From assembly GCA_951394405.1 (NCBI GenBank), contig OX596335.1:248001-312000 (forward strand): a stretch of 64,000 nt of DNA. The letters run 5' to 3'. Under the pieces are notes generated by a model, which was not told the origin of the DNA, did not search any database, and saw only the letters and a list, made by a program, of their open reading frames with translations. The position numbers were made by a program, and so were the translations under genes. Source of the DNA: Coprinellus micaceus. Taxonomy: Eukaryota; Basidiomycota; Agaricomycetes; Agaricales; Psathyrellaceae. Position 1 is the stretch's first letter; each line of letters opens with the position of its first letter. Of this stretch, positions 1 to 43,100 are shown piece after piece.

Positions 1-591
1 GGCTTCGGTCGCAGCTGGGGTGAATAGTCGGTGGTCGTCGTCGTTGTCCCACATTCGATGGTGTCTGTTGAAGTCGCCTGCCCAGATCATGTGTCTTTCA
101 TTGCCACAGAGTTCATTTCTGTTTGCGTCGATGTAGCGCTGGAGTGCTGTTGTGGAATTGTCGTCGTTGCAGTCATTGTATACGTTGAAGATCGATAGTC
201 GGCCAAAATCGCCTGTCAGGCATATCGCCGTAATATCTGGGTCGTCGCCCAGGTCCAGTTCGCTCCAGGTGTTCGTTGATATTTTTTCGTTGACCCATAT
301 GGCTGACCTTGGCGTCCTCTCCTTCCTGGCCTTCTTCGATGGGTATACTGGCCTGTAGCCTCGGGCTGTTGCTATGCTATCTGCGAAGTTCCTGTAGGGT
401 TCTTGGATCAGTATTACATCCCAGTCCTCGTGGTAGTTACCATTCATCAGCTCGTGGTGTGCAGCTGGCGATCTGTTTATGTTGAGCTGGAGTATCTTGA
501 GGTGCTTGGGGTTATGCTTCTCGGAGTCTGGTTCGTGTTCTCGCTGCGGATATGTTGGTTCCTCGTCGCCGTTGTGTTGGTCTTCGTTCAT
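1..591 (-). CDS. LINE ORF2, N-terminal endonuclease domain (partial)
   Basis: The frame opens at ATG 591-589 and stays open to the window edge (197 codons). After an acidic leader it reads LKILQLNINRSPAAHHEL, then WDVILIQEPY, and near the end IWAGDFNRHH followed by WDND. These match the N-QE-GDFN-H signature of endonuclease/exonuclease/phosphatase domains in LINEs, which nick target DNA for target-primed reverse transcription. The start overlaps the stop of the preceding frame as ATGA, an arrangement used for coupled termination-reinitiation in some two-ORF elements. Reverse transcriptase and RNase H parts are outside the window. Confidence 0.82.
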   Translation of the reverse strand, partial: MNEDQHNGDEEPTYPQREHEPDSEKHNPKHLKILQLNINRSPAAHHELMNGNYHEDWDVILIQEPYRNFADSIATARGYRPVYPSKKARKERTPRSAIWVNEKISTNTWSELDLGDDPDITAICLTGDFGRLSIFNVYNDCNDDNSTTALQRYIDANRNELCGNERHMIWAGDFNRHHRMWDNDDDHRLFTPAATEA

Positions 592-953
592 TTAGGCGGG
601 AACGTCGAGCTTGGTTCTTCCGTGTCCCACTCGATGTCCGTGTGCAGCTGCGGTTCGATCGGGCCCTTCCTCGTCAGCTGATTCCCAGGTGGGAACGACG
701 GTTGAGGCTGGGACTGGGTTTGTGTGGGGCCCGGTTGCGATTGGGTCATGGGGAAAGGGGCTGGCGTCCGCTTTGGATCAGGTCGCCTGAGTTGGCGTGC
801 TACGTCCTCGTCCTCGTCTGAGAAGGTGGAGAGTGGTGGCGATAGGCTTCTGGGTGTCCCCGTGGTGTCAGTTCTTGCTTTCTTTGCCTGCTTGGCTTCC
901 CATTGTGAGTTTGGCCTGAAGGTGGGTTCTATTCCCATCAGTGTCTCGTCAGC
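588..953 (-). other. in-frame continuation of LINE ORF1 beyond a TGA
   Basis: After the ORF1 TGA the same frame stays open to TGA 590-588. It encodes a Pro/Gln/Ser/Thr-rich, acidic segment that includes the runs TQTQSQPQPSFPP and IEWDTEEP. Its stop overlaps the ORF2 start as ATGA, where one would expect the genuine ORF1 end. The simplest reading is that the TGA at 954-956 is a point mutation in this copy. Readthrough or a small intron is also possible. There is no independent function assignment. Confidence 0.6.
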
Positions 954-2423
954 TCACCTGCCTACCTCTCTAATCCTTTCTGAGTTTAGCTGCGTTCTCT
1001 TGAGCCAGGTCATCGGGTCCTCTGTGATGTGGAAGTGAGTACCTTTAAGTGGGTTGAGACGACTTGCCTCTGATGCATGCCTCATTTTGGTGGGACATCT
1101 GGGGTTCTTTGCGTTGTGCCCCTCCACGTTGCATAGGGCGCACTTCTTGACTTGTTGGTTAGGGCACGGGGCTGCTTTCGTGTCTGAGTGGCCTTCCTCC
1201 GCACAGTTGCCGCATGTAGGTTGAGTCGCCGTGCATGCCCTGGCCATATGGCCCACCCCCTGGCACTTGTAGCACGTGAGGATCCCCCTCTCGAGCCTTT
1301 CTGTCTTCCTGTATTCGCTGTGGATTAGGGTGCCCTTGGCGGCCATCCGGTTTGCCACATCGGCGTCTCTGTATGTTACCTTGAGGTTCGCTACTCGCTG
1401 GCCCGGGTATCGGTCTTCGATCTTCTTCATCCATTCTATCTTGATGATGTCTTCCGGTTCTACGTCGTTGGCGGCACAGAATTCCTCCAGGCCATTGTTA
1501 ATGTCAAACTCTACCGGGGCGCATCTTACCATGTTGCAGAAAGTACCCCTTTCAACTGTTGATCCTAAAAGCGCTGCCAGCTGGTTCGCTCTGTTGCCCG
1601 TCTTGATCCACTCTTTGGAGCCGTCGTCTTGCATTTCGAGAATGACTGTCCCTGTGTTAACCCAGATTGTTGCCGTTCCGATACGTACCTTCGCTGGGGC
1701 CTTCATCGTCTCCGTTAGTGCGGCCTGTGCGAGGGTCTTGACTTCGTGGTTCGTTTTCCCGCATAGTCGCTCCTTCCCGTCTGCTCCTAGGTGTAGCTTC
1801 ACCTTCCTGAGTTGGATCATTATGACCGCAATCTCCGCCGGCGTCAGCTTGGCTCCTTGAGGATACGTTGCTTGAGCGTTTGCGAGTGTTTCACTTGTGC
1901 TCGTTCCTATCAGGGAGGCGTACGTCTTCTTGCTGTTCACCGATAGGCCCGTGACCGAGTTGTGTACTTGCTCAGCTGAGTTTCTTACCGCCGTAACAGC
2001 CTCCTCGGTGGCGGACTTTAGCTGCTCGAGTCCCTTCGCTAATTCGCTCTTGATTTCTGTTGCCACGCCGTCTAGGGATTTCGAGAACTGTTCCTGTAGC
2101 GAGAGCTGGACGGCTGCGTATCCCTTGCTATGTTCCTCGATGACTATTGCCAGTGCTTCATATATCTTCGCATCGAGCTCGGAGGCCTGTAGTTGGGGCT
2201 TATGCCCGGGTTGCCTTAAAGTTCGGGACCGTTGACGGAGCGCACTGATTAGTAGGCCTAGGTTTTGGACTTCTACGTCCTTCTTGATTATGCCGGCCTG
2301 TTTAAGTATCTTAGTAGCTGCTTCATACGATTCTGTGTTTGCTCCGGCGTCTGCCGTGGCTTGTAGTTTGTTGCCAGATGCTTGTGCTCTCGTAGTGGGA
2401 CCTGGCGCTCCTGCTCGACTCAT
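954..2423 (-). CDS. LINE ORF1, gag-like protein with CCHC knuckles
   Basis: This is a 489-aa protein. The N-terminal half is helical and rich in Ala, Gln and Glu, consistent with coiled-coil assembly. The C-terminal third has three zinc-knuckle-like clusters: CYKCQGVGHMARAC, a CGNC...H...C cluster, and CALCNVEGHNAKNPRC. This is the usual arrangement of nucleic-acid-binding ORF1 proteins in Tad/I-type LINEs, where it packages element RNA. The frame ends at TGA 956-954 but stays open for another 122 codons to 588, so the true ORF1 may be longer (see the next entry). Confidence 0.82.
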   Translation of the reverse strand: MSRAGAPGPTTRAQASGNKLQATADAGANTESYEAATKILKQAGIIKKDVEVQNLGLLISALRQRSRTLRQPGHKPQLQASELDAKIYEALAIVIEEHSKGYAAVQLSLQEQFSKSLDGVATEIKSELAKGLEQLKSATEEAVTAVRNSAEQVHNSVTGLSVNSKKTYASLIGTSTSETLANAQATYPQGAKLTPAEIAVIMIQLRKVKLHLGADGKERLCGKTNHEVKTLAQAALTETMKAPAKVRIGTATIWVNTGTVILEMQDDGSKEWIKTGNRANQLAALLGSTVERGTFCNMVRCAPVEFDINNGLEEFCAANDVEPEDIIKIEWMKKIEDRYPGQRVANLKVTYRDADVANRMAAKGTLIHSEYRKTERLERGILTCYKCQGVGHMARACTATQPTCGNCAEEGHSDTKAAPCPNQQVKKCALCNVEGHNAKNPRCPTKMRHASEASRLNPLKGTHFHITEDPMTWLKRTQLNSERIREVGR

Positions 2424-4160
2424 GTTGCCTAGAGGTAGTAGGGTATAGAGGGAAGCAGGTAATTTACACTTATTCTATCTCCTTCTTAGCCCCCAGACGA
2501 ATCCTTCTTGCTCTCGGTGTAGGCCTTGAGCGTGGGAAGAATCCGAGGTCCTGGTGGTTCGGGATCAAGATGTGTCCTCGTTTGATTTACCTATGCGAAG
2601 AGGAAACTCCTCAACGTCGAACTGATCTGACGTTTGCATAAGTTAACGCAGTTCTGGATCCCATATCACCTGCACGAGGACGCCGCGTGGTGAGAGCGAG
2701 CCCTTATCGATATGAAGCTGCACCGGGATATGGGCGCTTAATTTAGAGGAGGCTGATGATCGGATTCAAGCCTCGTTGTGGCCTCGCTGACTGGACCTGG
2801 GTAGATTTAATTCAACAGTGGAGCGAAGATGAAGTGAGGGTGAGTACATCTTTGGCGTATGCAGAAGATTACGGGCTCGATATCAAGTGTAGTTCAAGCC
2901 GCGTAGCGTTGCCTGCGAGTCATGAATGGTTCGCGTATCGGACGGGGAAGGCGACGCGTCGAACGTTTGAAGCGAGCGTCCGGTGCCCAGTAGCGAAAGC
3001 CGCGCGACCCTGTTCATATAACTCGAGAACATCTATAAGCCTCGTCGGCCCACTCGATCACAGTGTCCTTCAAACGCTCAGGCCTCAGGGGCCTTCGGGG
3101 AGGACAAGGTCTAGACCTCGCCAACTTGAAGGACCAGAACGCGTGACGTCATATATAGGCATTCGTCGGGTTTTAAACCTATATGCAGACGAGCCGACTC
3201 CGTCGCGCTCGCGTTGGCTTTACACCACTACCACTACCACTACCACCGCGCTAGAGCTCTGTTCCTCTCTTCGCCTTTCAAGAACCCCGTTACTCTTTGA
3301 CCTGCAGAACGTGTTCAAGATGCAAGAGGTGTAAGAAGGGTTTGAGGATCGAGAGGCGGGATCTGGGTCTAGGCGACGCCATGGTGGGAGGAATGCGGAG
3401 GATTGGCAATTACTGGTTGTATAACTTGAATCCATATAGAGTAACACTGACTAGAATTCATGGTATCAGGTTTACTCTCACTATGGACTGCGCTAGGTTG
3501 TACTTGGGGGACTGTGAGCTCTTTGAACAGACCTGTCACCGTTCACGTCGAGATGGATCCTGTTCAATGCTCATCCGATGCGCAGGTGTAGGTGCGCTCT
3601 CCTTCGTTCCGTCTGGACATCCAGAGTACGTTTCCTTGCTCCTTTGAATTCATCGCGATCGCAGTGGTTCCTGCTTGGTAACACCCCTCTCGCCTAGTCC
3701 TTCCTGCTTCCTGCTTGTTGTTTCCGCCGCTGTCGTTTGATCGTGCTTACAACTCCGATCCAACTTGGTCGGTGGCGATCCATCCGAGGACCTCCTAAGT
3801 AATCCTCGTGATTGGGATAGTGCAGAATCGAAATAACTCGTTGCTTTTGATAACTGACCCCTAACCTAACCTTCCACACTAGTCTTCTCGGCAAAACCTA
3901 GGGCTCTTCGATGTTCGTCGCCCAGCTTCGTATCTACCTTCGTCTTGCTTTATAGGGATACTTGAACTCAATCATTGCCTTCTTCGCTTCTTGGTTCGTA
4001 TCGTATATACCCATTCATTCGGGTGTTTCTTCCAAGAGGCTTGGGAGAGGAACTTCAGTGCTGACTTCTTCTTCGAGAATCAAACGTGAATAGGAAGAAG
4101 AAATCGGTCTCCTGACATATCAAAGCCCCCACTACGCTACTAGGTCGTCCACGGGTCCCC
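2424..4160. other. no gene assigned
   Basis: This stretch of about 1.7 kb lies between the LINE and the first DUF1996 gene. The open frames in it (for example 2756-3334) show no recognisable domain, no signal peptide and no coherent intron chain. It probably contains LINE 5' UTR on the left and DUF1996 upstream sequence on the right. A short trinucleotide repeat is annotated separately. Confidence 0.5.
3224..3247. repeat. (CCACTA)n microsatellite
   Basis: Tandem ACC/ACT triplets form about four hexamer units, ending just before CGCGCTAGAGC. This would read as poly-Thr on plus and poly-Val on minus, which explains spurious open frames on both strands here. Confidence 0.8.
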
Positions 4161-6248: not shown

Positions 6249-6419
6249 GGGCCTATTCGGAATGTCCGGGAAGCTAGGCGTACGCCTACGGCTACAGCCA
6301 AAAATCATCAAATTCAGGGTCCCATAGGCGGACGGCACCGTCTAGGCGTACGCCTAGACACGATTTCCCCGCCAAATTCTAGGCGTACGCCTAGGTAGCC
6401 GGACATTCCGAATAGGCCC
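6249..6419. mobile_element. 171-bp MITE with TAA target duplication (Harbinger-like)
   Basis: The element has perfect terminal inverted repeats starting GGGCCTATTCGGAATGTCCG on both strands (21 bp). It is flanked by TAA at 6246-6248 and 6420-6422. A 3-bp TAA/TTA target site duplication is characteristic of PIF/Harbinger elements. Inside are three copies of the palindrome CTAGGCGTACGCCTAG (6274-6288 with its last base changed, 6342-6357, 6379-6394). It has no coding capacity. Excising it with one TAA aligns the flanking codons with the intact paralogue. Confidence 0.88.
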
Positions 6420-7158
6420 TAATGTCCCTGGGTGTGACTCTATCCCGACGGCCACGACGACGGGGGTGAGTTGAATTGCTTGAGATGAGGGGTGAGCGAT
6501 TGAAGGAGCAATGGTGGTGTATATTCCTGGGTAGGGGAGAAGCTCGAAGTGCGGTGGAGTTCAGTTAGGCCGTTCGCTGGGGGTTGGTTTGTACTTCTTT
6601 ATGGGGTCAAAGGGCGACACACTCCAACGTGCTATAAACGTATGCACGCCAGGCGTCCTCCTGAGACCGAAGTTATAATTGTTCGGACGATGAACGGGGT
6701 GCTCTACCCGGGCTCCGCGCGGCCCTCCCCCGCCTCCTCCGAGTGCCGTCAACGTTCCAAAGCGCGAGGATCCGATACTGTCCAGGGGTTAACACTGAGC
6801 ATGTCGATAAGTATAAACATATAGATACAGTCCCATGTGGTGCGCTGATCCATACCACCTGGTTCTGGATCGACGGTTTCCTCATACGTATACACCGCAA
6901 TTCGTCAGAGTGTTGTGGAGCTCGGCGAGTCAGGCTCGGGGTCATCGAGATGTATCCAAACGAGCTTGACGTGGGTATCGAGGAATGTTTGAGAGCCGCA
7001 TTTATTATCAGGGACCTCTAAGCAATAGGGTACATATGTGCAGCGACTGTTCGATGGAACGTGTATCTTGAGTATCGGAGAGATAGGGAGAAGGTAGTCG
7101 AAGAGTTGGAGGGTAGGAATGGGGAGTGAATATGGGTGATGTCGCCTGGGGTGGTTGA

Positions 7159-7439
7159 TTACCAGCATGGGGTATTCCGGGTTCCGCAGGGCTCAGCCTT
7201 CATTTGGATACGTTGTTAGGTCACGGGGAGAAGTGAAGGAAGAGAGCCAGAAGCCTACCTCAGCTGCGGGCAAAGCATCGCGAGCCGCCGCTCGTTTAGG
7301 TGAAGGGGCGGCGAGAGCACCAAGGCCTATAAAAAGAATGGTCGATGGGGATTAACTCGATGTGTCGACAGGTGCCACTAGCAAACGTACTCTGGGCGAA
7401 GACAGCAACGACGATGGTGGCGATGACGGAGAACTTCAT
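7159..7439 (-). CDS. alpha-pheromone-like secreted peptide precursor 1
   Basis: Three exons, 7391-7439, 7259-7326 and 7159-7197, encode 51 aa. The start is a signal peptide, MKFSVIATIVVAVFAQ. After a KR and then an Ala-Arg come five X-Ala/X-Pro dipeptides (DA LP AA EA EP) and the terminal nonapeptide CGTRNTPCW, followed directly by TAA. This is the logic of alpha-factor precursors: secretion, Kex2-like cleavage after a basic residue, then Ste13-like removal of X-A/X-P dipeptides, leaving a short peptide with a Cys pair and C-terminal Trp. Exon 1 length (49 nt) and both intron phases match gene 2 on the other strand. Canonical basidiomycete pheromones are farnesylated CaaX peptides, so the function is unproven; it could also be another signalling peptide. 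Confidence 0.72.
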
Positions 7440-9274
7440 TGTTGCTTAGGACAAAGGCACGGGCTGAAAGAGTGGAGTGGGTTTGTTTGTTGAGAGCGAG
7501 GGAAACCACAGGGACGGGGGTGAAGACACGAGGCAATGGGGGTACTGGCCACCAATATGGCCCCGCCTGTCTGGTATTTGAATACCTACCTCCAGCCCCT
7601 GGGAACACCCATCTCGGGTCAATACATTTCTTGTTTTTCCAGGACTGTGAATCTGTGACAGGGTGATTGTTGGATGGACAGGTGAGTGACGTTTTCAGGC
7701 ACTGGGGGGTATATGGTCCTTGGTTGCTTGGCACCGGACAGCTGAAGGTCCTTCGAGGGTGACTAACATGGGACTTCGGAAAATCTTGTCGTACTTACCC
7801 TGGTCACCGGTGGGGTGACGTTGACGGCGACCGGGTTTGAGGTGTTTGTGGGAGGACGGAGGGAAGGCCAGATCTGAGTGTTGAGATAACCGTACCAAAC
7901 CAAGTTCTTGGGCGAGTCAGTGATTCCGTGGCGTTGAATACAAACCGAGCTGATATATATAACTATGTGTAGCCATCAAGTGGAATGCAAAGAGTCCGCC
8001 TGCGAAATCGTTTGAACCAAGTTGAGGCCCGACAGAATGAATGCTGAGCGAATTGGCACGTCAAGGGAAGGGAAAGCAAAATCCATTCATTGTCTCCTTC
8101 ATCTTTGCACGCTATGTAAGTTGGCCAAGGTCGGGTAGCAACCTCTCCCTCTGGAGCCTGGACCCATGCCAATGATTGAGGAGACGCCGGTCTCTCAGCG
8201 CTCAGCCTCGATCAGTTTACGTTTTCCCGACGAACCCCGGAGACCCCCAATGAGCACTTACTTACATACACACCCCTCTCGGTGGGCGGTTCCACATACG
8301 AAACCTGTTCAATGAAGGCCGAACGGGTGGACCGGGTGACATGTACGCCGTGAAACCTCACGGAGAGACGGCTCACCCTCCATCCAACTGCCACCCTCTG
8401 CCACTCCCTCTAACTTCATCTTTCATTCCGTCAGAAAAGCTCGTAACCAAGTCGTAACTCAACTCTATTGCGACAGCCCTTTCGAGGAAGGTTTTCACTT
8501 CGGGTTACGTTTGCCGGTTACAAATTCTGCCACCCAGGGCGCTTACGGATAGGGGCCCAGGTCTCGGTCGACCGGACCTTCTGTCGTGTGTCTCTTTTTC
8601 TTGCGTTTATGGTTAGAATTGCTCAAGTTGGGAAAGATGAGACACAAACATACATACTTGGAGGCGCCACTGTCTATTTGTGTGAAGCGTCGAGACCCCG
8701 AGGGAGGTTTGTGCGGTACCGGCACGTCCAAGCTCTGCCTCGCTCTGCCCATCACATATCCCTTCACGACCTCGCCTTCACCCTCGTTCCGTCACTTCCC
8801 AATCCTTGCTCATGGGCTGGCAAAGCTGCGTCCCCTACCACGCACCCACTCGATTGTAGATTATGACCGGAACTGGGGGTGCTTATCTCCAGGGACATGA
8901 AGTCGTGGTGTGCCTGGCCCTGGACCTCGATCAAAAGAGGCGTTGGAGGTCCGCCAATCGAGCTGAACTCTCATCGCGTCCTGTTCGCATCCTCCTACCC
9001 CGCGCCCGCCCATCCTTCCAATACGAGGCCGTACTCTCCCATGATGACCACCCACCGCCTCGCGTTCGTATCATGCCTCGCGTCCTACCTCGGGAATGAA
9101 ATCTCGACGGCCGCGTCGTCGTCGTCATACATAGACGAATAACTATGAATAGTATTGTTCCCGGAAATAAGATCCTCTTGTTGGTGCGTCGACAGTGGTG
9201 GGAGCGGGAGTCTTTCGTTGACACTCAGAGACGTCACAAGGGGAAAACAGGGTGCCTCGTTCTCGCAAGTTGAG
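7440..9274. other. spacer between divergent peptide genes; no gene assigned
   Basis: About 1.9 kb separates the two head-to-head start codons. I searched both strands for a third precursor (MKF start, Cys-Trp-stop) and for conserved domains and found none. Short open frames here have no signal peptide or paralogue. The region should hold the promoters of both peptide genes. Confidence 0.5.
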
Positions 9275-9282
9275 TATAAATA
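9275..9282 (+). promoter_or_regulatory. TATA box of peptide gene 2
   Basis: TATAAATA lies about 105 bp before the ATG at 9388. It is followed by a pyrimidine-rich leader (TCTCCCTCTCACCGTCTCC) typical of fungal transcription starts. Confidence 0.6.
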
Positions 9283-9387
9283 GATAGGAGACTTTGGGAG
9301 CGGGGTTTCTTTGTCTCCCTCTCACCGTCTCCATCCTTTCGCGCCCTCTCACACATCACCACCTTGCGACCTCAAAACACCCCAACT

Positions 9388-9679
9388 ATGAAGTTCACCG
9401 CCGTCGCGTCTGTGGTCGTAGCCATCCTTGCTCAAGGTACGCATCGCGACCTCGGTTGAACTTTGCATTAATGTCGGAGCTAACTGGTTTCTCCGGCGCC
9501 CACATAGGTCTGCTCAGTGTGGCATCACCAATTCAACTCGAAGCCAGGGAGGCTGCACCTGTAGCTGAGGTTCGTTTTACATTCCGTCCTCTTTCCTCAA
9601 TCTATCGTTCTGACTTGTAAATCTCCATCGATGGCAGCCAAACCCTTGCTCAAAGCCTGGCGGACCTCCTTGCTGGTAA
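9388..9679 (+). CDS. alpha-pheromone-like secreted peptide precursor 2
   Basis: Exons 9388-9436, 9508-9569 and 9638-9679 encode 50 aa. The signal peptide is MKFTAVASVVVAILAQ. The propeptide contains LEAR, then five X-Ala/X-Pro dipeptides (EA AP VA EP NP), then CSKPGGPPCW and TAA. Organisation, exon-1 length (49 nt), intron phases 1 and 0, the A-R before an acidic-Ala dipeptide, and the Cys-Trp terminus all match gene 1. The mature core differs strongly (CSKPGGPPCW versus CGTRNTPCW) while the secretory leader is similar. That pattern is expected of a signalling peptide whose specificity lies in the core. It lacks a dibasic Kex2 site, so cleavage would have to occur after a single Arg. Confidence 0.75.
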
Positions 9680-15759: not shown

Positions 15760-15831
15760 TGACCATCGCAGGGGTCGAACCTGCAATCTCCTGATTCGTA
15801 GTCAGACGCGATGCCATTTCGCCAGACGGCC
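15760..15831 (-). tRNA. tRNA-Arg(ACG), copy 1
   Basis: The minus strand folds into a full cloverleaf: acceptor GGCCGTC with GATGGTC, D stem GCGA/TCGC, anticodon stem TCTGA/TCAGG around loop CTACGAA (anticodon ACG), T arm GCAGG-TTCGACC-CCTGC, and discriminator A. No intron. It reads CGU/CGC arginine codons after A-to-I editing. A second copy lies at 19048-19119 on the other strand. Confidence 0.93.
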
Positions 15832-16588: not shown

Positions 16589-18239
16589 TCAGTGCCAAGT
16601 CAGCTCCACTGCTCTCGTCGACGCAGTGGACCCTCCAACATAGTGAGAGGCGCGATTCGTTGCCGGATATCGGTACTCTTCTGCGGCGTCGCGGAGGTTA
16701 AGGACCAGCCTTGAAATCATTAAACTCGTTATTCTGCACAACAGACAGGGGTAGGTTGGTTTAAAGTTTAGTTCACCATTGCGAGGAAACATTACGTTCA
16801 CGTACAGTGTGCTGAAACTCGCGTTGATGACTTTGATGTCCTCTGGCGCGAGCTGATTGAAAGGTAAGTTATCGTCAAGTGCCATGGTGAAAAGGGATCA
16901 GCTTACGAAAACCATGAATACAGTCACGAAATTCGCGGCGAAGATGACTGCGAAGTATATCACACCTAGCAACGGTAGTTCAGTTCGGGTCCGAGAAAGA
17001 GACCCCCGAGATTGAAGGACAGACCATCTCGGACAATGAGGTTGAGGAGGGTGATTTTCTTGTTGCGCTGGTGCCGGTAGTACATGATGGTTCGTCCAAG
17101 CGTCAAAGCAAACATCGCGGTATCTGTGTGAACCAGAGTGAGAATTGGTGAGGCGGAGGGTTTCACGGAGGAGAAATGCAGTTTTACCAAACCCAAGCTC
17201 CGCTATCCAAGTGAACGCAAATCTCCTGTGGAGTCGCGTTAGACGGTGCCTTTCGCACTCTGTGTCTATTCGAAACGAAACGATGACTTACGTATGGTTC
17301 TTGCCAATGAGAATACAACCGACAAGTTCTGTCAAAGTGCATCAGCGAGTTCTTGAAACCAAGTAACCAGCCTCGCGACGTACCTTTCGGTAGCTCCAGA
17401 GCTACGCCGTCGGTAAACGCCCACTAAATAACGGTCGTTAGCCATGCCAAATTTCATCTTCGCGAGCGCCACAATCATTCCTCGAGAACTCACTATCTTA
17501 ATCACGATCTCCGCGAGTAGCAACGTCGCCCCGAATGCCATAATCGCTCGATTGCCACCGTACAGCGCGTAGAGTCGCATGAGAAATATAACTAGAAAGT
17601 CGAGACAAACATGTTCAGCATCATTTGAGGGAAGCGCTTGAGGGTAATTGAGAAAAGACACACCTCCAATCACAAACGCGGTGACGACCTTTAAAGCTTC
17701 CGGAAACAGGATGTATCGATTGCATACATCGGGAGACCATGGTTGATGGAAAGCTATTGATGCCAGGGACATTAAGCGGGGCCACGAGCGAGAAGGGAAG
17801 GACGGAACTCACAAACAATGATGACGATGTAGCCAAGAGGGGAGAGATACCGGTTCTGTTGTCACAACGAAACTCGTCAACTCGAGATCGCCTTGCGTCG
17901 GTAGGAGGGGAGGTGATACAGCAAAAGAGTGAGGGCGACGACGTACCAGTGCCCAAAGGAGGGTCATCCAACTGTACTTAGGCTTGAGCCAGATGCTCTC
18001 CATCTCCCGATCGAAAGTCAAGACGATATCATAGAAGAGCATCACTGATGATGCGGTAAAGAGTCAAAATTCAATTCAAGGAAGCATTGCAGGTAGGCTC
18101 GCACCGCAGGAGGCCAGTGAGTACATCTTCGCAGCCATCCTACGATAGATTCCAGTCAGCGGGACATAAAATTCGTAGAGTAATGGGCTCACAGGTAGTA
18201 CGCGACTCGTGCAAGCTCAGGATCCGGAGGGGACGCCAT
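16589..18239 (-). CDS. seven-transmembrane protein, DUF6533-like
   Basis: About thirteen short exons can be joined in frame from ATG 18239, including 18193-18239, 18105-18139, 17947-18044, 17813-17855, 17664-17753, 17494-17591, 17384-17423 and 17292-17328, ending at stop 16589. The N-terminus carries the family hallmark FYDIVLTFDREMESIW. Several hydrophobic helices follow, including VVTAFVIGG, LMRLYALYGGNRAIMAFG and VIYFAVIFAANFVTVFMVF. A cytosolic tail contains SRLVLNLRDA. This is the layout of the expanded basidiomycete DUF6533 7-TM family, for which a ligand and signalling role are not established. Many exons are only 35-100 nt long with about 50-70 nt introns. It is not recognisable as a STE2 or STE3 pheromone receptor. 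Confidence 0.85.
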
Positions 18240-19047
18240 GCTGGGAGCGCCAGCTCCTAGCTAGAAGAGAATGCGAAAGGGAATTGTGGGGTATATGACA
18301 GAACTTAGGTGGATGTGCGACATCGCCCAAGCTTCGTATTAATACTGCACTCTGATCAGGGCTCCATGGCTAGAGATCACTACCCTACAGCACTTTAAAT
18401 CCTAACGCCCACCTATCACCCATTGGTGAACGAGTTCAAACTCGGAACTTCCTCAATGCGGAGCTGACACTCATCGAAGTTGGACCCACCTCTTGCATGA
18501 GGCAGGGACATCATTTTGCAGTGATCGATACAGCAGTGACGCCGAATTAAAGCTGTCGAGGGAATATCCCTGGTCGCTATGTTTCATGCCCCCAACCAGT
18601 CGGCATTCGCAGAGGGGGTGCAGGGTGCCTCAGTGAGGTGGAAGTGCATACTAGTCCGGTCACCGTTGGAATACAGACTCAACGCCACGGGGTATATCAT
18701 GGTATTGCATATGGGCGCTTCCTTCCCCGTTACACCCATTTGGCCTTGCTGTGCCTTCCAGCGGCCCGCGGCATCGAGATGGTGGGCCGAGCATTGGTAG
18801 GTATCATATTAGTACGTGCTTTGACTGACACCTCGTCTCGGTTCCACTGTTAACGGACCTTTGTGCTGACTAGCCACGGTAAAATGCGCATGTACCTGCG
18901 TTCAGCATTCTCAGGGTCGTCCCAGCCCAATCTCACCTCGGCGCCTGTCGCAGCCCTCTCGAGGCTTCCGGCGCTTCCAATGGCCTAAACACCCACCGTT
19001 ACCGGCTACAGAAGAACATGCGGGCTCAAAAAACATCTACTCTATCT
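18240..19047. other. no gene assigned
   Basis: Upstream region of the 7-TM gene and 5' flank of tRNA copy 2. No coding potential supported. Confidence 0.5.
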
Positions 19048-19119
19048 GGCCGCCTGGCGAAATGGCATCGCGTCTGACTACGAATCAGGAGATTGCAGGT
19101 TCGACCCCTGCGGTGGTCA
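19048..19119 (+). tRNA. tRNA-Arg(ACG), copy 2
   Basis: It is identical to copy 1 in the D, anticodon and T arms. It differs at two acceptor-stem positions (GGCCGCC with GGTGGTC) that keep pairing, i.e. a compensatory change. 72 nt, no intron, anticodon ACG, inverted relative to copy 1. A T-rich stretch follows about 20 nt downstream (GTTGTTTTTGTT), a plausible Pol III terminator. Confidence 0.94.
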
Positions 19120-19127
19120 TGCGTTGT

Positions 19128-22729: not shown

Positions 22730-24009
22730 CTACGGTTCATATGTGAAGCAGTTGGGCTCCAGCAATGAGTCCATTACATCCCGAATGTTGATAGAAGGGG
22801 CGAGCCCTGGATACTCCAACTGGAAATCGAAGGTAATTTTCGTCGTCGGGTCGTTCTTATCTGTCGGGCCAGAGAGGTCGTACAGCCTCCTCTCAGGGTA
22901 GGCTTGCTGCCAAAGCCACCACAGGCGGTCGAGGTTCCCGTGGTGGAAGTAGAATAGAGGGTCTACCAGAGGGGTCAGCGTCATTACGAGTGGGGGGGCG
23001 GACAGGATTTAAACGCACCTCCTCCTGCCGAGTATAGGTTTGACACTTCGCCACCCACCATCGCATGCCCCGCGGAGTGTATTCCCGTTGCACTAATATC
23101 GATGCCCTGCCTGAACTCTTCGAAGGTCTGGCGTTCCATCAGCCCCTCGATAACCGGCCCACTGAGCTGCTTCCTTCTCGAGGGATCAAACCCTCGAACG
23201 AGACACCTCTCTGTGTAAAGCCTCCCAGGCCCGAGGTGTAGAGTGAAGTTAGCAAACGGGCCATCCTGCACACACCCCTTGTAGCACTGTTCCCGGGGGA
23301 GAAAGTCGGGGGTGGGGGGATTGGTTGACCCAACGTTATCGGGCAGCGGGTCGGGCGGGAGGTCGTAGGTACCAGGGACTCCGTCTCCACCGAATCCGGT
23401 GTTGGGGTCGAAGATCGACCATTGCTCCATCCTTTGTTCGCAATTAAGTGCGAATAGGGTGAATGGGGATGCGGTAAATGGCTTACGGTAGGTCAGAGTC
23501 GACATCGCGAGTCCAGTGCCAGTACGTGCCGGGACCCTTGTACCCACACTCAGTTCGGAGGGCGTTAGTGTACAGGGTCACAAATCCTCGGTGCCAGGGA
23601 AGAAATTGCCCCTGTTGCGAACGAAGATTGAGTATCGGTCGGGCCTATCCGCGGGAGACTGCTGTATTGCTCACCACATTGAAGTGGACTATCCCGGTGA
23701 CCGCGATGTGGGTCTCTTGGAATTCTTCGAATCGAGAAGTGGCTAGGTTCGACGAGTTCTTCGGTGGAAGAGACTGAAAGCAGAGCACGGCTTGGATGTA
23801 GTCGTGGCGCTGTTCATCTGTAAGGTCGCGCCTGGGTGACAATTAGAGACGAGCACAGAGTGAACTTGTATTGCTCGATAAGCCTACCATTCCTTCCGAT
23901 GGTCGATACTCTTGCATGCGGTGCCGTGCGAAGGTTGCGATATCGGAGAGGCGAGGACCATTGAGCATGCTCGAAATGCGAGGACCAGGCAAACCAGGAA
24001 GACTGCCAT
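22730..24009 (-). CDS. secreted short tyrosinase/catechol-oxidase-like protein 1
   Basis: Five exons, 23888-24009, 23675-23831, 23487-23611, 23019-23431 and 22730-22962, encode 349 aa. A signal peptide (MAVFLVCLVLAFRACSMVLA) precedes the type-3 copper fold. CuA-side residues appear as the ETH in FQETHIAVTGIVHF and in FLPWHRGF; the CuB side shows HSAGHAMVGG and PLFYFHHGNLDRLWW. These coordinate two coppers for o-oxidation of phenols or catechols. A Cys-containing loop (CYKGCVQDGPF) sits between the halves. There is no C-terminal lid domain, so it belongs with short secreted enzymes rather than full-length mushroom PPO. The start at 24009 was chosen because it gives a signal peptide and matches gene 2. 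Substrate is unknown. Confidence 0.9.
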
Positions 24010-25657: not shown

Positions 25658-26993
25658 TTACTCGTAGGTAAAGCAATTGGGATGCAGGGACGAATCCATC
25701 GTGTCACGGATGGTGATATTCGGACCCAACGCGGGGAAGTCAAGTTCAAAGTCGAGGGTAACATTGTCTCTACCCCGCTGGGTCGTTGGACCCGAGATCG
25801 CATAAAGTCGATTAGCGGGATCGGCTTGCTGCCATTTCCACCAGAGGCGATCCAAGCCACCGTGGTGGAGGTAGAAGAGGGGATCTTGGATGAAGATCAG
25901 TTCGTTTCAAGGTAATGGATTGAGAAGGGGCACTCACCAGCACCAGCAGAATAGGTGTTCGTCATCTCACCTCCCACCATCGCGTGCCCGCCGCCATGAA
26001 CTCCGGGCAACCTGTCGATAATGAGGCGGAACGATTCGAATGACTTGGATTGGAGTACGTTCTCGACGTTCGCAGTGGTGTACGCGCTTCGCATGAATTC
26101 GTTAACGCCACGCACAAGGCAGTGTGCTGTGTTCATCCTCCCAGGACCGAGGTGCACGACCCAATCCTTGAAAGGCCCGTCCTGGACACACCCTTTCCAG
26201 ATCTTCGAAGTCTGTTGGCCCGGGAAAGGGAATATACCGGTCTGGTTGGTTGGATCCGAGGGGAGTGTGTAAGTCCCTTCCACCCCGTCACCTCCGAACC
26301 CAGTGACAGAGTCGAAGATGGGAGAGTTTAGCAACCTGGGGTTCAAGCGTATCAGTGGCAGAAGGCTTTGATGACGAGTGCCTGGAGAAGATTCGGGCTT
26401 ACGGAAGATTCATATCGTCCCTGGTCCAATCCCAGTACCTGCGAAAGGGGGTATGGTAAGACAAGTTAAGAATGAGAAACTAGAAACTGGAGCCTACGTG
26501 GTGGGACCATCATATCCGCACTCCTCTTGAAGAACCCTTCCGTACAGGTTACCAAGGTGCCTGTGCCAAGGAAGGAAGTGGCCCTGCGGTGAGAGCTCAG
26601 CGCTCAGTATTTGTCGTTGGGCGAAAGTATGATGCCCATACCACCAAATGAACCCGATCGGTGAGAAGGATGTGCGTTGCTTGGAACTCTTCGAACCTTG
26701 TAGTAGCGGCGCGCGTCTTGTCCTTCGGAGGTAACGTGTGTAGGCACTTGACAGCATCGATATATTTCAAACGTTGCTCAGCCGTGAGATCACGCCTAAG
26801 AACGATGTAAAGCAACGCTAGGGAGGGGGAGTAGGGGGAGGTAGGATGTGAGAACCTACCATTCCCTACGGTCGTCAATCGTGGTGCACTTTGTCCCAGG
26901 AACCTCGAGTGCGTTGATTGAGGGCTCGTGCAGGGGGACGGCGACCACGCTCTGGATGAGAAACAAAAAGGCGAGGGCCACCAGAGTACGCAT
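25658..26993 (-). CDS. secreted short tyrosinase/catechol-oxidase-like protein 2
   Basis: Six exons, 26860-26993, 26642-26795, 26498-26583, 26403-26438, 25938-26335 and 25658-25884, encode 344 aa. The signal peptide is MRTLVALAFLFLIQSVVA. It is paralogous to tyrosinase 1, sharing the KCTTIDDRREWRDLT start, FEEFQATHILL, FLPWHRHL, GFGGDGVEGTY, HGGGHAMVGG and PLFYLHHGGLDRLWW. All expected copper-ligand motifs are visible. It has one extra intron (26439-26497) that splits the TYWDW region, which is continuous in copy 1. Ends FTYE like copy 1. A TATA-like CATATAAT on the minus strand lies about 45 bp upstream of the start. Confidence 0.9.
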
Positions 26994-36162: not shown

Positions 36163-36251
36163 GGTCAGAATAGGCGCCCGCGGCTGGGCATTGACAGGTT
36201 TGAGAGGCCGCGCCACGTGTGAGCCTCGTTGGATCTCTTCTCACTACCACC
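36163..36251 (+). promoter_or_regulatory. conserved NACHT upstream block with E-box
   Basis: AGAATAGGCGCCCG...GGCTG and GCCACGTGTGAGCCTCGTT precede the NACHT1 start codon, with CACGTG at 36214-36219. The same ordered motifs precede NACHT2 at equal spacing (CACGTG at 44457-44462), while flanking bases differ, suggesting retained regulatory function. Confidence 0.6.
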
Positions 36252-37958
36252 ATGTCTACCACCAGCTACTTTTCCAACGCCAGCGATGTCCGTATCGAGA
36301 ACCTCAACCTGGTGGGCGGAAACCACTCGAGAGGCTTGGAGGAGGCTTTCAAACGTGAGGCTTCGAACGCTCCGCCTTTCGAACCGCCAATTTAATGGGA
36401 TCTCGGGCATAGATCTGTACGATAGCACCGCAATAGAAGCCGTGCACAACTCAGCAGGACGATACGGCGCACCGAAGTGCCACGAGGACACCAGGAAGGC
36501 GGTCCAAGGGGACATCCACAGTTGGATTGAGGATGGCGACGGTGAGGATGAGCCGAAGAGGATTCTATGGCTGACCGGACCTGCTGGGGCGGGGAAGACC
36601 GCCATTATGGGCACCATGGCGGACAAATGCGAAGCTCTGGGTCTCACAGGGAGCTTCTTCTTCTCGTCCTACACCGGGAACGAGAAGAGACGCTTGAAGG
36701 GGTACTTGGTCCCGACCTTGGTGTATCAGTTCATCGCACTGCTTGACGTAAAGCATCCCTTACGCCGCGCTGTACTGACAGCGATTCAACGCGACCCTTC
36801 TATCTTCCAAAGGCAGTTGGACTATCAGTTCAGAGCCCTTCTCATCAAGCCTTTTAGCGACACTAGTCACCAGTTCGATCCGTCGACTATCCCCAGGGTC
36901 TTCATGATCGATGGATTGGATGAGGTGGAAGCGGTAGGCTCTCGGGAGCCCGGCCGGGACCAGCACGACGTCCGAATAGGAAACGAGGACGACCAAGAAG
37001 AAATTCTATCCGCCCTACTCCACGTTACCAGGCACCCCACATTCCCCTTCCGCATCGTTCTCGCTAGTCGCCCCGAACGTGCCATCAAGACCTTCCTCTC
37101 ATCAGAGGCGGGCCACGTCACCCAGGAGATCTTCCTCGACGACAAGTACGACCCGGATACGGATATCGATCTATACCTCCGCGCTAGCTTTGCCAAAATT
37201 CGGAGGAGGTACCGGCTACCCGCTTCGTGGCCCGCGGAAGCTACCATGAAGAAACTGGTGTTCCGAGCGTCAGGTCAATTCATTTACGTCGCCACTATCA
37301 TCCGCGCTCTACAATGTGGGAAGCACCCGAACCCCAGAAATACTCTACGTACCCTCCTGGGACCGGAAGGCCGAGGCTGTGAAATTGACGTTCTGGCATC
37401 CTTGGACGCTCTCTACATCCGAATACTGAAGTCGAGTCCTGACCCAGTCTTGGCGGTTCGATGGATACGTGTAATCGTTGAGAAATCTTGGCGGGGTCTC
37501 TCCGCGTTCTTCATGAACCAACTAATGCAAGACCATGATGGCCAAGCCAGCTATTTGTTGGAAAGCCTCGCATCGCTTGTGTGGATACCCCCCGTCGAAG
37601 ACGAGGCGTCGCCTTACCACTTGCATCACAAATCATTCGCTGACTTCCTCGCCGACGAAAGTCGATGTGGTCATGAGCTTCATCACGCATTCCAAGGCGG
37701 CCACGAAGTCTGGATCGAACGCTGTGTCGATATATACAAGAGTACGTTCATGGCATACTTTCAACGTGACCACACAGTGACCGCCTTACGAATAGATAAA
37801 TCCCCCGTCACCGTTCTACCGGAACCGCAACAGAGATCCTTTCTACGCGAGTTCATCCGTCAGGCCGAGGGTGGACAAATACTAGCTCAATCCCTCCATG
37901 CCAAAGGGGGCATCGAAAAGCTGGCCAGGTGCGATGTGGTATGGTGGGTCCACTTTGT

Positions 37959-38957
37959 GGGGGTGTCCAATCCCCGTATGTCACGCGGCTGGCCCGTGTC
38001 ACAGTGCGTCACGGTGTCACGCGGAAACTCGAAACAGGGACTTACCGAAGCACCTTTCGTGCCATCCTGTCTCTTGTCCCCTAAATATAAATATTGAGAA
38101 GGTAGAAATCGATTTTATATGTATATAGGCGGGTAATGTAACTCATTTCGCTGCGCCAACATATGCGGCCTGCCAACGAGAGGACCAAAGGGCTCTGAGG
38201 CGCCCATGTCACGGCCCTATTTCCGTTTTTGGTCACGAGCCCGGTCGCGCTGAACACGAGCACCCGGCACCTTCTGCCCCATGGCTCTCCACTGAGTCCA
38301 CTTAGAGCCATATAAAAGACACCCTCATGAAGCTAAGCTGCTACTCTATATTTCTACCATAAATTGGTGAGATTTATATCTTTTGGTGTAACGCAAATTT
38401 GGGTATCACAAGGGGCAACTGGACACTCTTGTAAAGAATAGAACTCAGTACGATCTGCTCAGACGAGCAGGGTTTGTAGAGACTTTCACCTCCGGTGGCT
38501 TCTGGCTATAGAACTCCAGGATTCGATTTTTGATTAAAGGCCTACAAGTGTCAGATACTACCCAGTGAAAGGAGGTATCTCAGGAGGGAAGAAACCTACA
38601 AAAAATAGAATCGTGGAGTTCTGTTAGGATCCCTCTTCGCTACAAAATCGGTCTATAAATCATCCCAGTACGTGCAGTCGTTCTTGAGTTCTATTCTTTA
38701 CAAGTTTTCCCTGCCAAATTGGCCGTGACTTGAGGTGAATTCCCAGATATCTGGTCCCGTACCTGGCTTAAACACTTTTAATTTTGCCAACGCACTAATA
38801 TACCATGTGTACATCCATTCCGCATTTTATTTGAGTTGGATCTGCCGTGTAGAGCCTGCAGTCGAGCAAAGCACTCTCGGTTTCACCTATTGGCCTGTGA
38901 CACGCGCGTGACGCCTTTGTCACGCGCGTCGGCCGTATAGGGAATTGGACACCCCCA
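37959..38957. mobile_element. ~1.0-kb non-autonomous DNA transposon in NACHT1
   Basis: Terminal inverted repeats begin GGGGGTGTCCAATCCCCGTA on the left and (T)GGGGGTGTCCAATTCCCTAT on the right (reverse strand). CACTTTGT at 37951-37958 is repeated at 38958-38965, a 7-8 bp target duplication compatible with hAT-type elements. Subterminal TCACGCG and GTGTCAC motifs occur near both ends. It has no transposase frame. The interior holds a large imperfect hairpin (38428-38704). Confidence 0.82.
38428..38704. repeat. nested 277-bp imperfect palindrome inside the transposon
   Basis: CTTGTAAAGAATAGAACTCA at 38428-38447 is exactly inverted at 38685-38704. Further in, TAGAACTCCAGGATTCGATT (about 38508) pairs with the complement of AATAGAATCGTGGAGTTCT (about 38606). 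The two halves are imperfect reverse complements over most of their length. It may be a second MITE nested in the first, or a structural core of the element. Confidence 0.75.
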
Positions 38958-40145: not shown

Positions 40146-43100
40146 ATGCCCACCATCCCCAAGAACGCCCTCGTCCTCGTCACAGGCGCGAACGGCTACA
40201 TTCCCATATGGACCGTCTCCTCCCTCCTCTCTCGGGGGTACTCCGTGCGCGGCACAGTCCGTAGCGCTAAGAAGGGCGACCACCTCCTTTCCTATTTCGA
40301 TGCCTACGCGAAGTACGGGAAGTTCGAGTTGGCTATTGTGGAGGATATAACGAAAGAGGGCGCCTTCGACGAAGCTGTGAAAGGTGTAGATGGGATCGCT
40401 CATATGGCGAGCCCGTTCCATGAGAATGTGGATGATCCTGAGGGTGCGTTGGCTCTTCCCCCTTTCTTCTCCTTCCCCCTACTCTCCGATAACCGAACTA
40501 ATTCCCTCTCCGAACAGAATTTATCCGCCCCGCCGTTCAAGGCACGCTCACCCTCCTGCGCTCCGCCCAAGCCCACGCAGGCCCTCAACTCAAACGGGTC
40601 GTCATCACCTCCTCCTGCGCCGCCGTCATTACCCTCCAACCCACCGCACGCACCTTCTCCGAACTCGACTGGAATGAGCAGTCTATCGACGAAGTGAAAG
40701 CGCAGGTGCGTTATCACCATGCGACGAGGATGAGAGCGAGTGCTAACGAGAACCCGAACAGGGCCGCGCCGCACCCCCAATGACGAAGTACCGTGCGAGC
40801 AAGACCCTCGCGGAGAAAGCTGCGCTGGAGTGGTTTGAGGAGAGGAGGGGAACCCTTGGGTGGGATGTAGCTTGGATTAATCCGCCGTTTGTGTTTGGGG
40901 TGCGTTCGTCATTTCGTTCATTCTTTCATTTCTCTTCTTGGTATTACCGCTTCGCTTCGCTGTATCGATTCGACTACGTCGCTGCGAGGTTCGACCTCTC
41001 TCTTCGTAACATGGCAGCTTCGTCCCTTCCACGTTTCGTTTCTACAGTGCGAGAGTATGGGTACTAATCTAAGTACGTTTGTGCAGCCCGCGATACACGA
41101 GATCCCAGGGAACAAGCCAGAGAACTTGAACACCTCGCTCAAAGCGTGGTACGATTTCGTGCTTGACACCAAGAACCCGAAGGGAAGGGAGGCAGTAGCG
41201 CTGAGCAATGCTTGGGTGGATGTGAGGGATTTGGCGGTACGTACCTATTCTCTGTTTCTATTTCCCTCGTCCTCTTGATCGATTTCCCTGGCATTTTGCG
41301 ACCCCTCCATTCAAGTCCACTTCTTGTCCCCTTTCATTCCCCTGACACAACGTATTTCGCCCATCGTCTGTTCGCTCCTTGAGGAAATCGAGAAGCCTCC
41401 GTGTACGCCCTGCGGTCTGACCGATTCCCGGGTCGGAGCTGTGGGTTGTGCGCTGGAGTAGTCCAGAGTGGACCTACTCGGGCGGGCTCGCTGGTCAGGC
41501 TGGTGCGCTGGGCGACGTTGGCTGGGCACCTCGGTATAGCGTCGAGGGCAAGGAGTGGTATTGGTTCCGTACACTGCTGGCATCTACATCAGATATCATA
41601 ATCTAATCTAATCTATAGCGACGCTGGCTGTGCTGGGCGCCTAAGCGCCCTGGCACATGTGCCCACCCCCTCTTGTAGCAACGCCCTCGTTGCGTCACCG
41701 AACTTGTGTCCTCCAATCATTGAATGTCCAGAAAGTACTCGGATCGTGAATGTGGGAGAAAATGCAAGGACATAGCGGTTGTGTGAATCGTCGGCATGAA
41801 AAGTGGGAAGGTGTCAAACGGGGAGGTCGAGTGAAGTCGGAGCGGGGTTGTCTACGGTATCGGTTTCGAGAGGTCCTACGGTGGATACTCACCCACGGTC
41901 TGGAACGTGAATCTGACCGCAGGGATGAGAAGTCGCGATGGTCGGGCCGACATCGACCGGATGAGGGAGGTTCGGAGTGTGATGAAGCCTCCTGCAACGG
42001 TTCCTCTGACCATACGACACGAGGAGATGGCGTCCGAATGACCTGGGAGCGGGGTTCTGGTTCGGATGATGAAGGACTCGGCTTGGTGAGACTGGGTACA
42101 GTCTCAGTCGGTGTCAAGATATGTGAGGGGTTCGAGGATGGATGCGGAAGAGGGTGTGAGGTGGTAGAGAAAGCTGGCGAGGCGGGGTTATTGTTCTCTT
42201 GTGGATGACCGCGTGCTTCGAGTCGTCCGGCCTCGAGCCCTTTCTTGAAGGCGTAGTTGGTGTCTTGCTGCCGCTGTGGCATCATGTTCTCTTGAGCTTG
42301 TGTCCATCCCACCTTTCGCCCTTCCTCGAACGCCCCTGCAATCGCTTCGGCATTCTTCTCCGACATGCGCTCAAGCACGAAATTAATGCCCCGGCCGTAT
42401 CCGTGTTCGTGACCACGCTTGAAGATGATGCGTTGGTTGGGGGTGAGAAGGCTGAGGTCGTGCTCGTCAGGTACCGGCTCGTCGTCTGAGTGTGCGGTTA
42501 CGGCGGTAGTGGTCGTGGGTGAAGAACGGGGTTCGGGGTCGGATGCGCTCGCTTGGTTCTCTGTAGACTGAGCTTCCCATCGCGCACGCTCGTCGGCAAT
42601 ACCCTGCTCGTAGGCAGCATTACGGAACTCTTCGAGACGCGCTTCATAGTCGATGATAAAGGCGTGGACTTGCTCATCGAGCTCGTCGTATCGAGCCTTG
42701 AACCGCTGGGTCGCTAGAGTGCACCCACCGCGAACACCGCTCCTGAATGCCTCGGCGATGACAGGCCCGGCTACAGGGTCTTGGAGTTCGAAGCGATCGG
42801 CGAGCCTGGTCAGAAGCTGGTCGAGGGAAATGGCTTCGTCTGGGTGGTTCTCGTCCGTTGGCGGGCTCGGTGCGGTTGGCTGGGAGTCAACAGGGAGTGG
42901 GGGAAGGATAATATGGGACTGGGATGAGGTCGCTTCCGCTGTTCGAGCAACCTTGTTGGCTCGTTGCCGTGCTCGCTTCGCTGGTGTAGCAGCCGGCATT
43001 GAAGTATCCTTATCCGGGTGAATGAAAAAAGACGGTATGATATCGGAGAAGGTCGAGAGTGGTTCGGGAAAAGTCGGTTCTGGGTTCGCGGCGAGGTAGT

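Follow-up and report, generated by a model that had tools for sequence, protein, structure and literature searches.

Do filamentous basidiomycetes encode secreted peptides of the ascomycete alpha-factor type, and what purpose would such peptides serve? The question is raised by two small divergent genes, A and B, in a stretch of 64,000 nt of Coprinellus micaceus DNA (hereafter the window; positions refer to this whole stretch unless a contig is named). All sexual pheromones described from basidiomycetes are a-type lipopeptides, and published work leaves open what the alpha-type precursors of the phylum do (PMC6339444, PMC9769878).

Design and predicted processing of genes A and B

Both genes lie on contig C2 in a head-to-head arrangement, with their start codons 1.95 kb apart, and each is predicted to comprise three exons.

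Gene A: 7439-7159, minus strand; three predicted exons, 51-aa precursor
Gene A exon 1: 7439-7391, minus strand; 49 nt, secretion leader MKFSVIATIVVAVFAQ
Gene A exon 2: 7326-7259, minus strand; 68 nt, pro-region (..LGALAAPSPKRAAAR) and dipeptides DA-LP-AA-E..
Gene A exon 3: 7197-7159, minus strand; 39 nt, dipeptides ..A-EP, core CGTRNTPCW and TAA stop
Gene B: 9388-9679, plus strand; three predicted exons, 50-aa precursor
Gene B exon 1: 9388-9436, plus strand; 49 nt, secretion leader MKFTAVASVVVAILAQ
Gene B exon 2: 9508-9569, plus strand; 62 nt, pro-region (..LLSVASPIQLEAR, with an LxxR-type site) and dipeptides EA-AP-VA-E..
Gene B exon 3: 9638-9679, plus strand; 42 nt, dipeptides ..P-NP, core CSKPGGPPCW and TAA stop
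TATAAATA box: 9275-9282, plus strand; 113 bp 5' of the gene B start codon

The predicted products are MKFSVIATIVVAVFAQSLGALAAPSPKRAAARDALPAAEAEPCGTRNTPCW for gene A and MKFTAVASVVVAILAQGLLSVASPIQLEAREAAPVAEPNPCSKPGGPPCW for gene B. In the predicted splice forms, all four introns run from GT to AG, measure 61–71 nt, and interrupt the frame first in phase 1 and then in phase 0. After Ala-Arg, each precursor continues with five dipeptides, all of the X-Ala or X-Pro type (5/5 in both), which read DA-LP-AA-EA-EP in A and EA-AP-VA-EP-NP in B. A single core follows; repeated cores between Kex2 sites, as in KEX2-processed repeat proteins (KEPs), are absent. The precursors carry a secretion leader and end in Cys-Trp, and the C-terminal CaaX of lipopeptide pheromones is lacking. 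A third copy, C, is located on contig C1 and is described below. The leaders of A, B, and C all consist of MKF and a hydrophobic stretch, with a mean hydropathy of 2.1–2.4 over 13 residues, and all three cores are short, with two cysteines and a terminal tryptophan. The initial annotation had described two precursors of ~50 aa with the same exon design, five dipeptides, and these cores, and its coordinates, lengths, and phases all proved correct.

The coding pattern is more than chance would be expected to produce. Frames matching [AP]-C-x4-9-C-W-stop occur twice in the 64-kb window, as A and B, and A and B are still the only frames found when the [AP] condition is dropped. Among 100 windows generated by a second-order Markov model, 94 contained no [AP]C frame and 6 contained one, never two (mean 0.06). 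In the 15 kb to the left of the window, a scan for C-x4-9-CW-stop found no frame. The global alignment score of A with B was reached by none of 5000 region-wise shuffles, in which the leader and the remainder were shuffled apart. Together with the shared exon plan, this result bears out the earlier view that A and B are paralogs with a conserved leader and a divergent core. No Pfam family fitted A or B: the alpha-factor models, which represent the alpha-mating factor of yeast (PMC7329392), were unmatched at E up to 10, and the single match of gene A (RTP801_C, E 0.15) is at chance level.

The leader, the Arg site, and the train of X-Ala/X-Pro dipeptides form the signature of the alpha-factor pathway, which involves signal peptidase, Kex2, and Ste13. 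We infer that both genes are expressed and that the leader targets the precursor for secretion, with signal peptidase acting first. A Kex2-type protease would cut after Arg, at LEAR in B and, in A, at AAAR or the KR directly preceding it. The five dipeptides would then be stripped by a dipeptidyl aminopeptidase of the Ste13 type, which would halt at the core. The mature peptides are predicted to be CGTRNTPCW (A) and CSKPGGPPCW (B), each with a free C-terminal Trp; because the stop codon directly follows the core, no C-terminal trimming or Kex1 step would be needed. Each core probably forms one disulfide, as suggested by its two cysteines, spaced by 6 or 7 residues, and the terminal Trp.

The extended Kex2 motif is LxxR, with Arg at P1 and Leu at P4, and the best-accepted P2 residues are Lys, then Arg, Thr, Pro, Glu, and Ile (PMC8528282). 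A Kex2-type site precedes the dipeptides in both genes: LEAR of B fits LxxR, and A offers KR and AAAR. The P2 residue before Arg is Ala in both, which is outside the preferred list of that paper. Of the two possible cut sites in A, only AAAR gives five removable dipeptides in register, while a cut at KR leaves AA-AR ahead of the train. The genome contains candidate enzyme genes, namely two matches to the P-domain, as would be expected of Kex2-like proteases, and one DPPIV_N locus (DPPIV/Ste13-type) in three pieces on contig C1. Both the architecture of A and B and these candidates support the alpha-factor-like precursor design that had been proposed.

Relation to known peptides and likely role

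Precursors of this kind are already known. Alpha-type repeat precursors with Ste13 signatures were reported in basidiomycetes by Le Marquer et al. 2019 (PMC6339444). Umemura 2020 named six such basidiomycete precursors and counted 76 homologs, and among 216 precursors resembling pheromones of ascomycetes, only two were basidiomycete (PMC7329392). In Pleurotus, processed Trp-ended peptides, probably arising via Ste13 activity, were detected by mass spectrometry in 2022 (PMC9769878). The initial description of A and B as an undescribed family is therefore too strong, since basidiomycete alpha-type Ste13 precursors are in print, one of them with a Cys..Pro-Cys-Trp core (PMC6339444, PMC9769878, PMC7329392). 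What appears new is a small paralogous family of single-core, three-exon, Cys-Trp precursors in a filamentous basidiomycete, a form that did not show among the matches listed from the titles and abstract openings of open-licence PMC papers.

Comparison with individual systems places A and B close to alpha pheromones. Ascomycete alpha-pheromone precursors, of which single-copy forms exist (PMC6339444), likewise have a leader, a Kex2-type site, an X-Ala/X-Pro run, a two-Cys core, and a terminal Trp. WCMWRGQPCW of Fusarium has the same Cys-x6-Cys-Trp spacing as A, but in its precursor the core is repeated 11 times, with KR or RR sites (PMC10057649). The KEPs of Agaricomycetes come from mushroom-group fungi and share the Ste13 motif and Trp-ended cores with A and B; in contrast, they are repeat precursors, and cores such as SGVAADW of Pleurotus and QYKAPSW of Coprinopsis, the latter from a protein made in Pichia, are without cysteines (PMC9769878, PMC7329392). 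The yeast Trichosporon oleaginosus has a core, QSWGGCGGRGTPCW, that was likened by the authors to Sordariomycete pheromones (PMC6339444). Its alpha-type KEP resembles A and B in its basidiomycete origin, the Ste13 dipeptides after a Kex2 site, the two cysteines, and Pro-Cys-Trp, but it belongs to a yeast, contains repeated cores per precursor, and has a Trp before the first Cys, whereas A and B are single-core precursors. By eye, CGTRNTPCW of A equals CGGRGTPCW of T. oleaginosus at seven of nine positions; the comparison covers nine residues from a single species. With the four fixed residues (Cys, Pro, Cys, Trp) excluded, three of the five interior positions agree (p ~0.003 against random residues, with an assumed residue composition and uncorrected for the three cores compared). 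This match is suggestive, not proof, of common descent, and it suggests, without showing, a family spanning basidiomycete classes.

We know of no dipeptide run and no disulfide in Qsp1 of Cryptococcus neoformans. Like A and B, Qsp1 is a short basidiomycete peptide (11 residues) derived from a small secreted pro-peptide, and it affects mating; unlike A and B, it is matured extracellularly by Pqp1 and imported through Opt1 (PMC7537855).

Considering these likenesses together with the gene architecture, we regard it as probable that A and B encode alpha-factor-like prepropeptides that are trimmed to disulfide cores. Most likely, the peptides would carry extracellular signals from hypha to hypha, by way of a receptor that is not Ste2 and apart from the STE3/lipopeptide mating system. 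The cores may serve as the specificity-determining ligands that the initial annotation saw in them. Single-core genes with exactly predicted products of 9 and 10 residues lend themselves to testing more readily than repeat precursors do.

Alternatively, the peptides could be processed and secreted but act outward on bacteria, fungi, plants, or animals, in defence or interaction. Divergent cores on a conserved leader may also fit an arms race, although Pro-Cys-Trp cores of 9–10 residues stand nearer to the alpha pheromones of Fusarium and T. oleaginosus than to the defence peptides familiar to us. In Coprinopsis, knocking out six repeat-type precursors caused no apparent phenotype, and roles in the biotic environment are favoured in that study; against such a role, its synthetic peptides were inactive on the bacteria assayed (PMC9769878). 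We consider outward action unlikely.

Returning to signalling between hyphae, the receptor genes of the genome bear on whether such a signal would take part in mating. The STE3 model gave 25 exon-level matches, in a cluster at C8:933840-969957 and also at C13:62847-65417 and C3:2870604-2871621. None is located on C2, which carries A and B, or on C1, which carries C, and the family is thus unlinked to STE3. The clustered matches likely represent the conventional pheromone-receptor mating-type region of Coprinellus micaceus. Ascomycete alpha pheromone is read by Ste2, a receptor that is not known from basidiomycetes. A search of the genome with the Ste2 model (PF02116) gave 0 matches at E up to 10, with one candidate scored, which is weak evidence of absence, as the model was unmatched in control genomes too; a search of the same type readily detected STE3. 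If the proposed receptor exists, it and its ligand would make up a novel pair of peptide and receptor in a phylum not known to have Ste2.

A true sexual pheromone, that is, a second mating signal beside the STE3 lipopeptide system, is quite improbable: the architecture of A and B and the way their cores end strongly recall the alpha-pheromone precursors of ascomycetes, but the contigs with STE3 matches are different ones, the Ste2 search is negative, if weakly so, and A and B are adjacent in one assembly rather than alternative alleles. We rate a non-mating signal as more likely than a mating pheromone. As a wider proposal, which we advance tentatively and consider doubtful, basidiomycete yeasts and mushroom-group fungi may keep a Cys-Trp disulfide family of the alpha-factor type, with a non-Ste2 receptor, that is used outside lipopeptide mate choice, and A and B would be two signals of one such system.

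A multi-exon gene with a DUF6533 match is located ~9 kb from A (16600-18240, minus strand; limits and splicing assigned by eye). Its largest single open frame alone had no Pfam match. We take its product to be probably a seven-helix protein, and its linkage to A is no evidence for a receptor. Together with the clustered STE3 matches, the DUF6533 match suggests a filamentous basidiomycete.

Paralog C and the extent of the family

Paralog C (contig C1, 4995103-4994820, minus strand; product MKFSVIAAMVIAVFVQSLGALGAPPSKQDAVLPTPKAEQCGHGNAPPCW; core CGHGNAPPCW) was found among 34 Pro-Cys-Trp-TAA places that an ungapped pattern identified in the 50.3-Mb genome. The 49-nt leader exon, the exon plan, both intron positions, and the CW-stop are common to A, B, and C, and all three retain open frames and splice sites. 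The similarity between A and C extends beyond the genes.

6992-7779, minus strand: segment common to gene A and the C locus, 70% identity
6841-6886: further short piece shared by A and C

The longer segment consists of gene A with ~340 bp of 5' flank and ~170 bp of 3' flank. In C, the Arg site is lost, and with it the Kex2-type site ahead of the dipeptides; the dipeptides left are LP, TP, and KA, and EQ stands directly before the core. The processing signature that had been called conserved thus holds in A and B, with the Arg site and 5/5 dipeptides, and fails in C, which weakens the claim of strict conservation across members. Paralog C may be decaying, or it may be processed in another way.

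Between A and C, identity amounts to 80–84% in the exons, 80% in intron 1, and 69% in intron 2, with indels of 9 and 3 nt in exons and of 4 and 5 nt in introns. The Nei-Gojobori method, applied to a hand codon alignment with coding gaps of 12, 3, and 3 nt, gave, on few sites, dN/dS of ~0.17/0.29 overall; for the leader the values were ~0.11/0.47 (4 synonymous changes over 11.5 sites and 4 replacement changes over 39.5). The core exon contains 1.5 synonymous changes over 8.5 sites and 5.5 replacement changes over 30.5, corresponding to a dN of 0.21 and a dS of 0.20. By these counts, on few sites, the leader appears constrained and the core is without sign of constraint. That the genes are decaying or non-coding relics, left from an ancient alpha-pheromone-like family that has become weakly constrained, is very improbable: copy C without Arg site and register, the similar dN and dS of the core exon, and an intron 1 about as conserved as the exons point in that direction, whereas the intact open frames, splice sites, and CW-stops of A, B, and C, the apparent constraint on the leader, and the TATAAATA box at gene B point away from it.

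Copying of A and B as a pair is not supported: the 3.2 kb upstream of C contains no second C-x4-9-CW-stop frame and hence, by this test, no B-like partner. The genome contains 146 PCW-stop places (34 TAA, 40 TAG, and 72 TGA), of which 67 were read directly upstream (34/34 TAA, 30/40 TAG, and 3/72 TGA). Apart from A, B, and C, 13 of these 67 have a Cys and 4–9 residues before CW, and Ala or Pro precedes that Cys in none of the 13. For 64 PCW-stop places, the 800 nt on the upstream side were checked for a hydrophobic leader of 16 aa with GT after exactly 49 nt, so that a first exon of any other length would escape; A, B, C, and one unrelated place had such a leader. Further family members may exist beyond the 67 places read, and the pattern misses paralogs that do not end in PCW-stop.

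At the DNA level, gene B matched only itself in the genome, and gene A matched A and C. The protein query of B matched B alone, as three exon pieces, while that of A matched its own three exons and one place on contig C4 (E 0.095, 41% identity), judged by eye to be a chance match. Because A and B as protein queries detected neither each other nor C, the protein search is blind to distant paralogs. One locus elsewhere has an ascomycete-like look, with CLFSGEPCW-stop, and was rejected: a stop stands two codons before the Cys, and the surrounding frame is of sirtuin type, presumably that of a sirtuin-type gene.

The motif ACAAAGGGA, which we take to be the Ustilago pheromone-response element, has no copy in the window. 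Two copies are located at C1:4995822 and 4995862, ~720–760 bp upstream of C and outside the segment shared with A; the motif occurs once in 183,732 bases of other loci, and these copies are not counted as evidence. Further upstream of C, a stretch at C1 4996734-4996932 is 89% identical to a ~200-bp repeat found in the window at 41458-41657 and 43340-43539.

Other features of the window

The remainder of the window contains mobile-element-like sequences and several open frames and tRNA genes.

1-2474, minus strand: retroelement-like open frames, comprising a zinc-knuckle protein and an endonuclease-like frame, the latter assigned by eye
6249-6419: MITE-like element of ~170 bp with terminal inverted repeats of ~21 bp (GGGCCTATTCGGAATGTCCGG), by eye
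22987-23577, minus strand: tyrosinase-like open frame with a Pfam Tyrosinase match
25900-26409, minus strand: tyrosinase-like open frame, by eye
36223-38094: nucleotide-binding open frame with an NPHP3_N match, NACHT being below the cut-off
44604-46040: nucleotide-binding open frame that resembles the 36223-38094 frame by eye
15760-15831, minus strand: tRNA-Arg(ACG) gene
19047-19120, plus strand: tRNA-Arg(ACG) gene

A comparison of a tyrosinase exon with the PDB gave no match. The two tRNA-Arg genes are ~3.2 kb apart.
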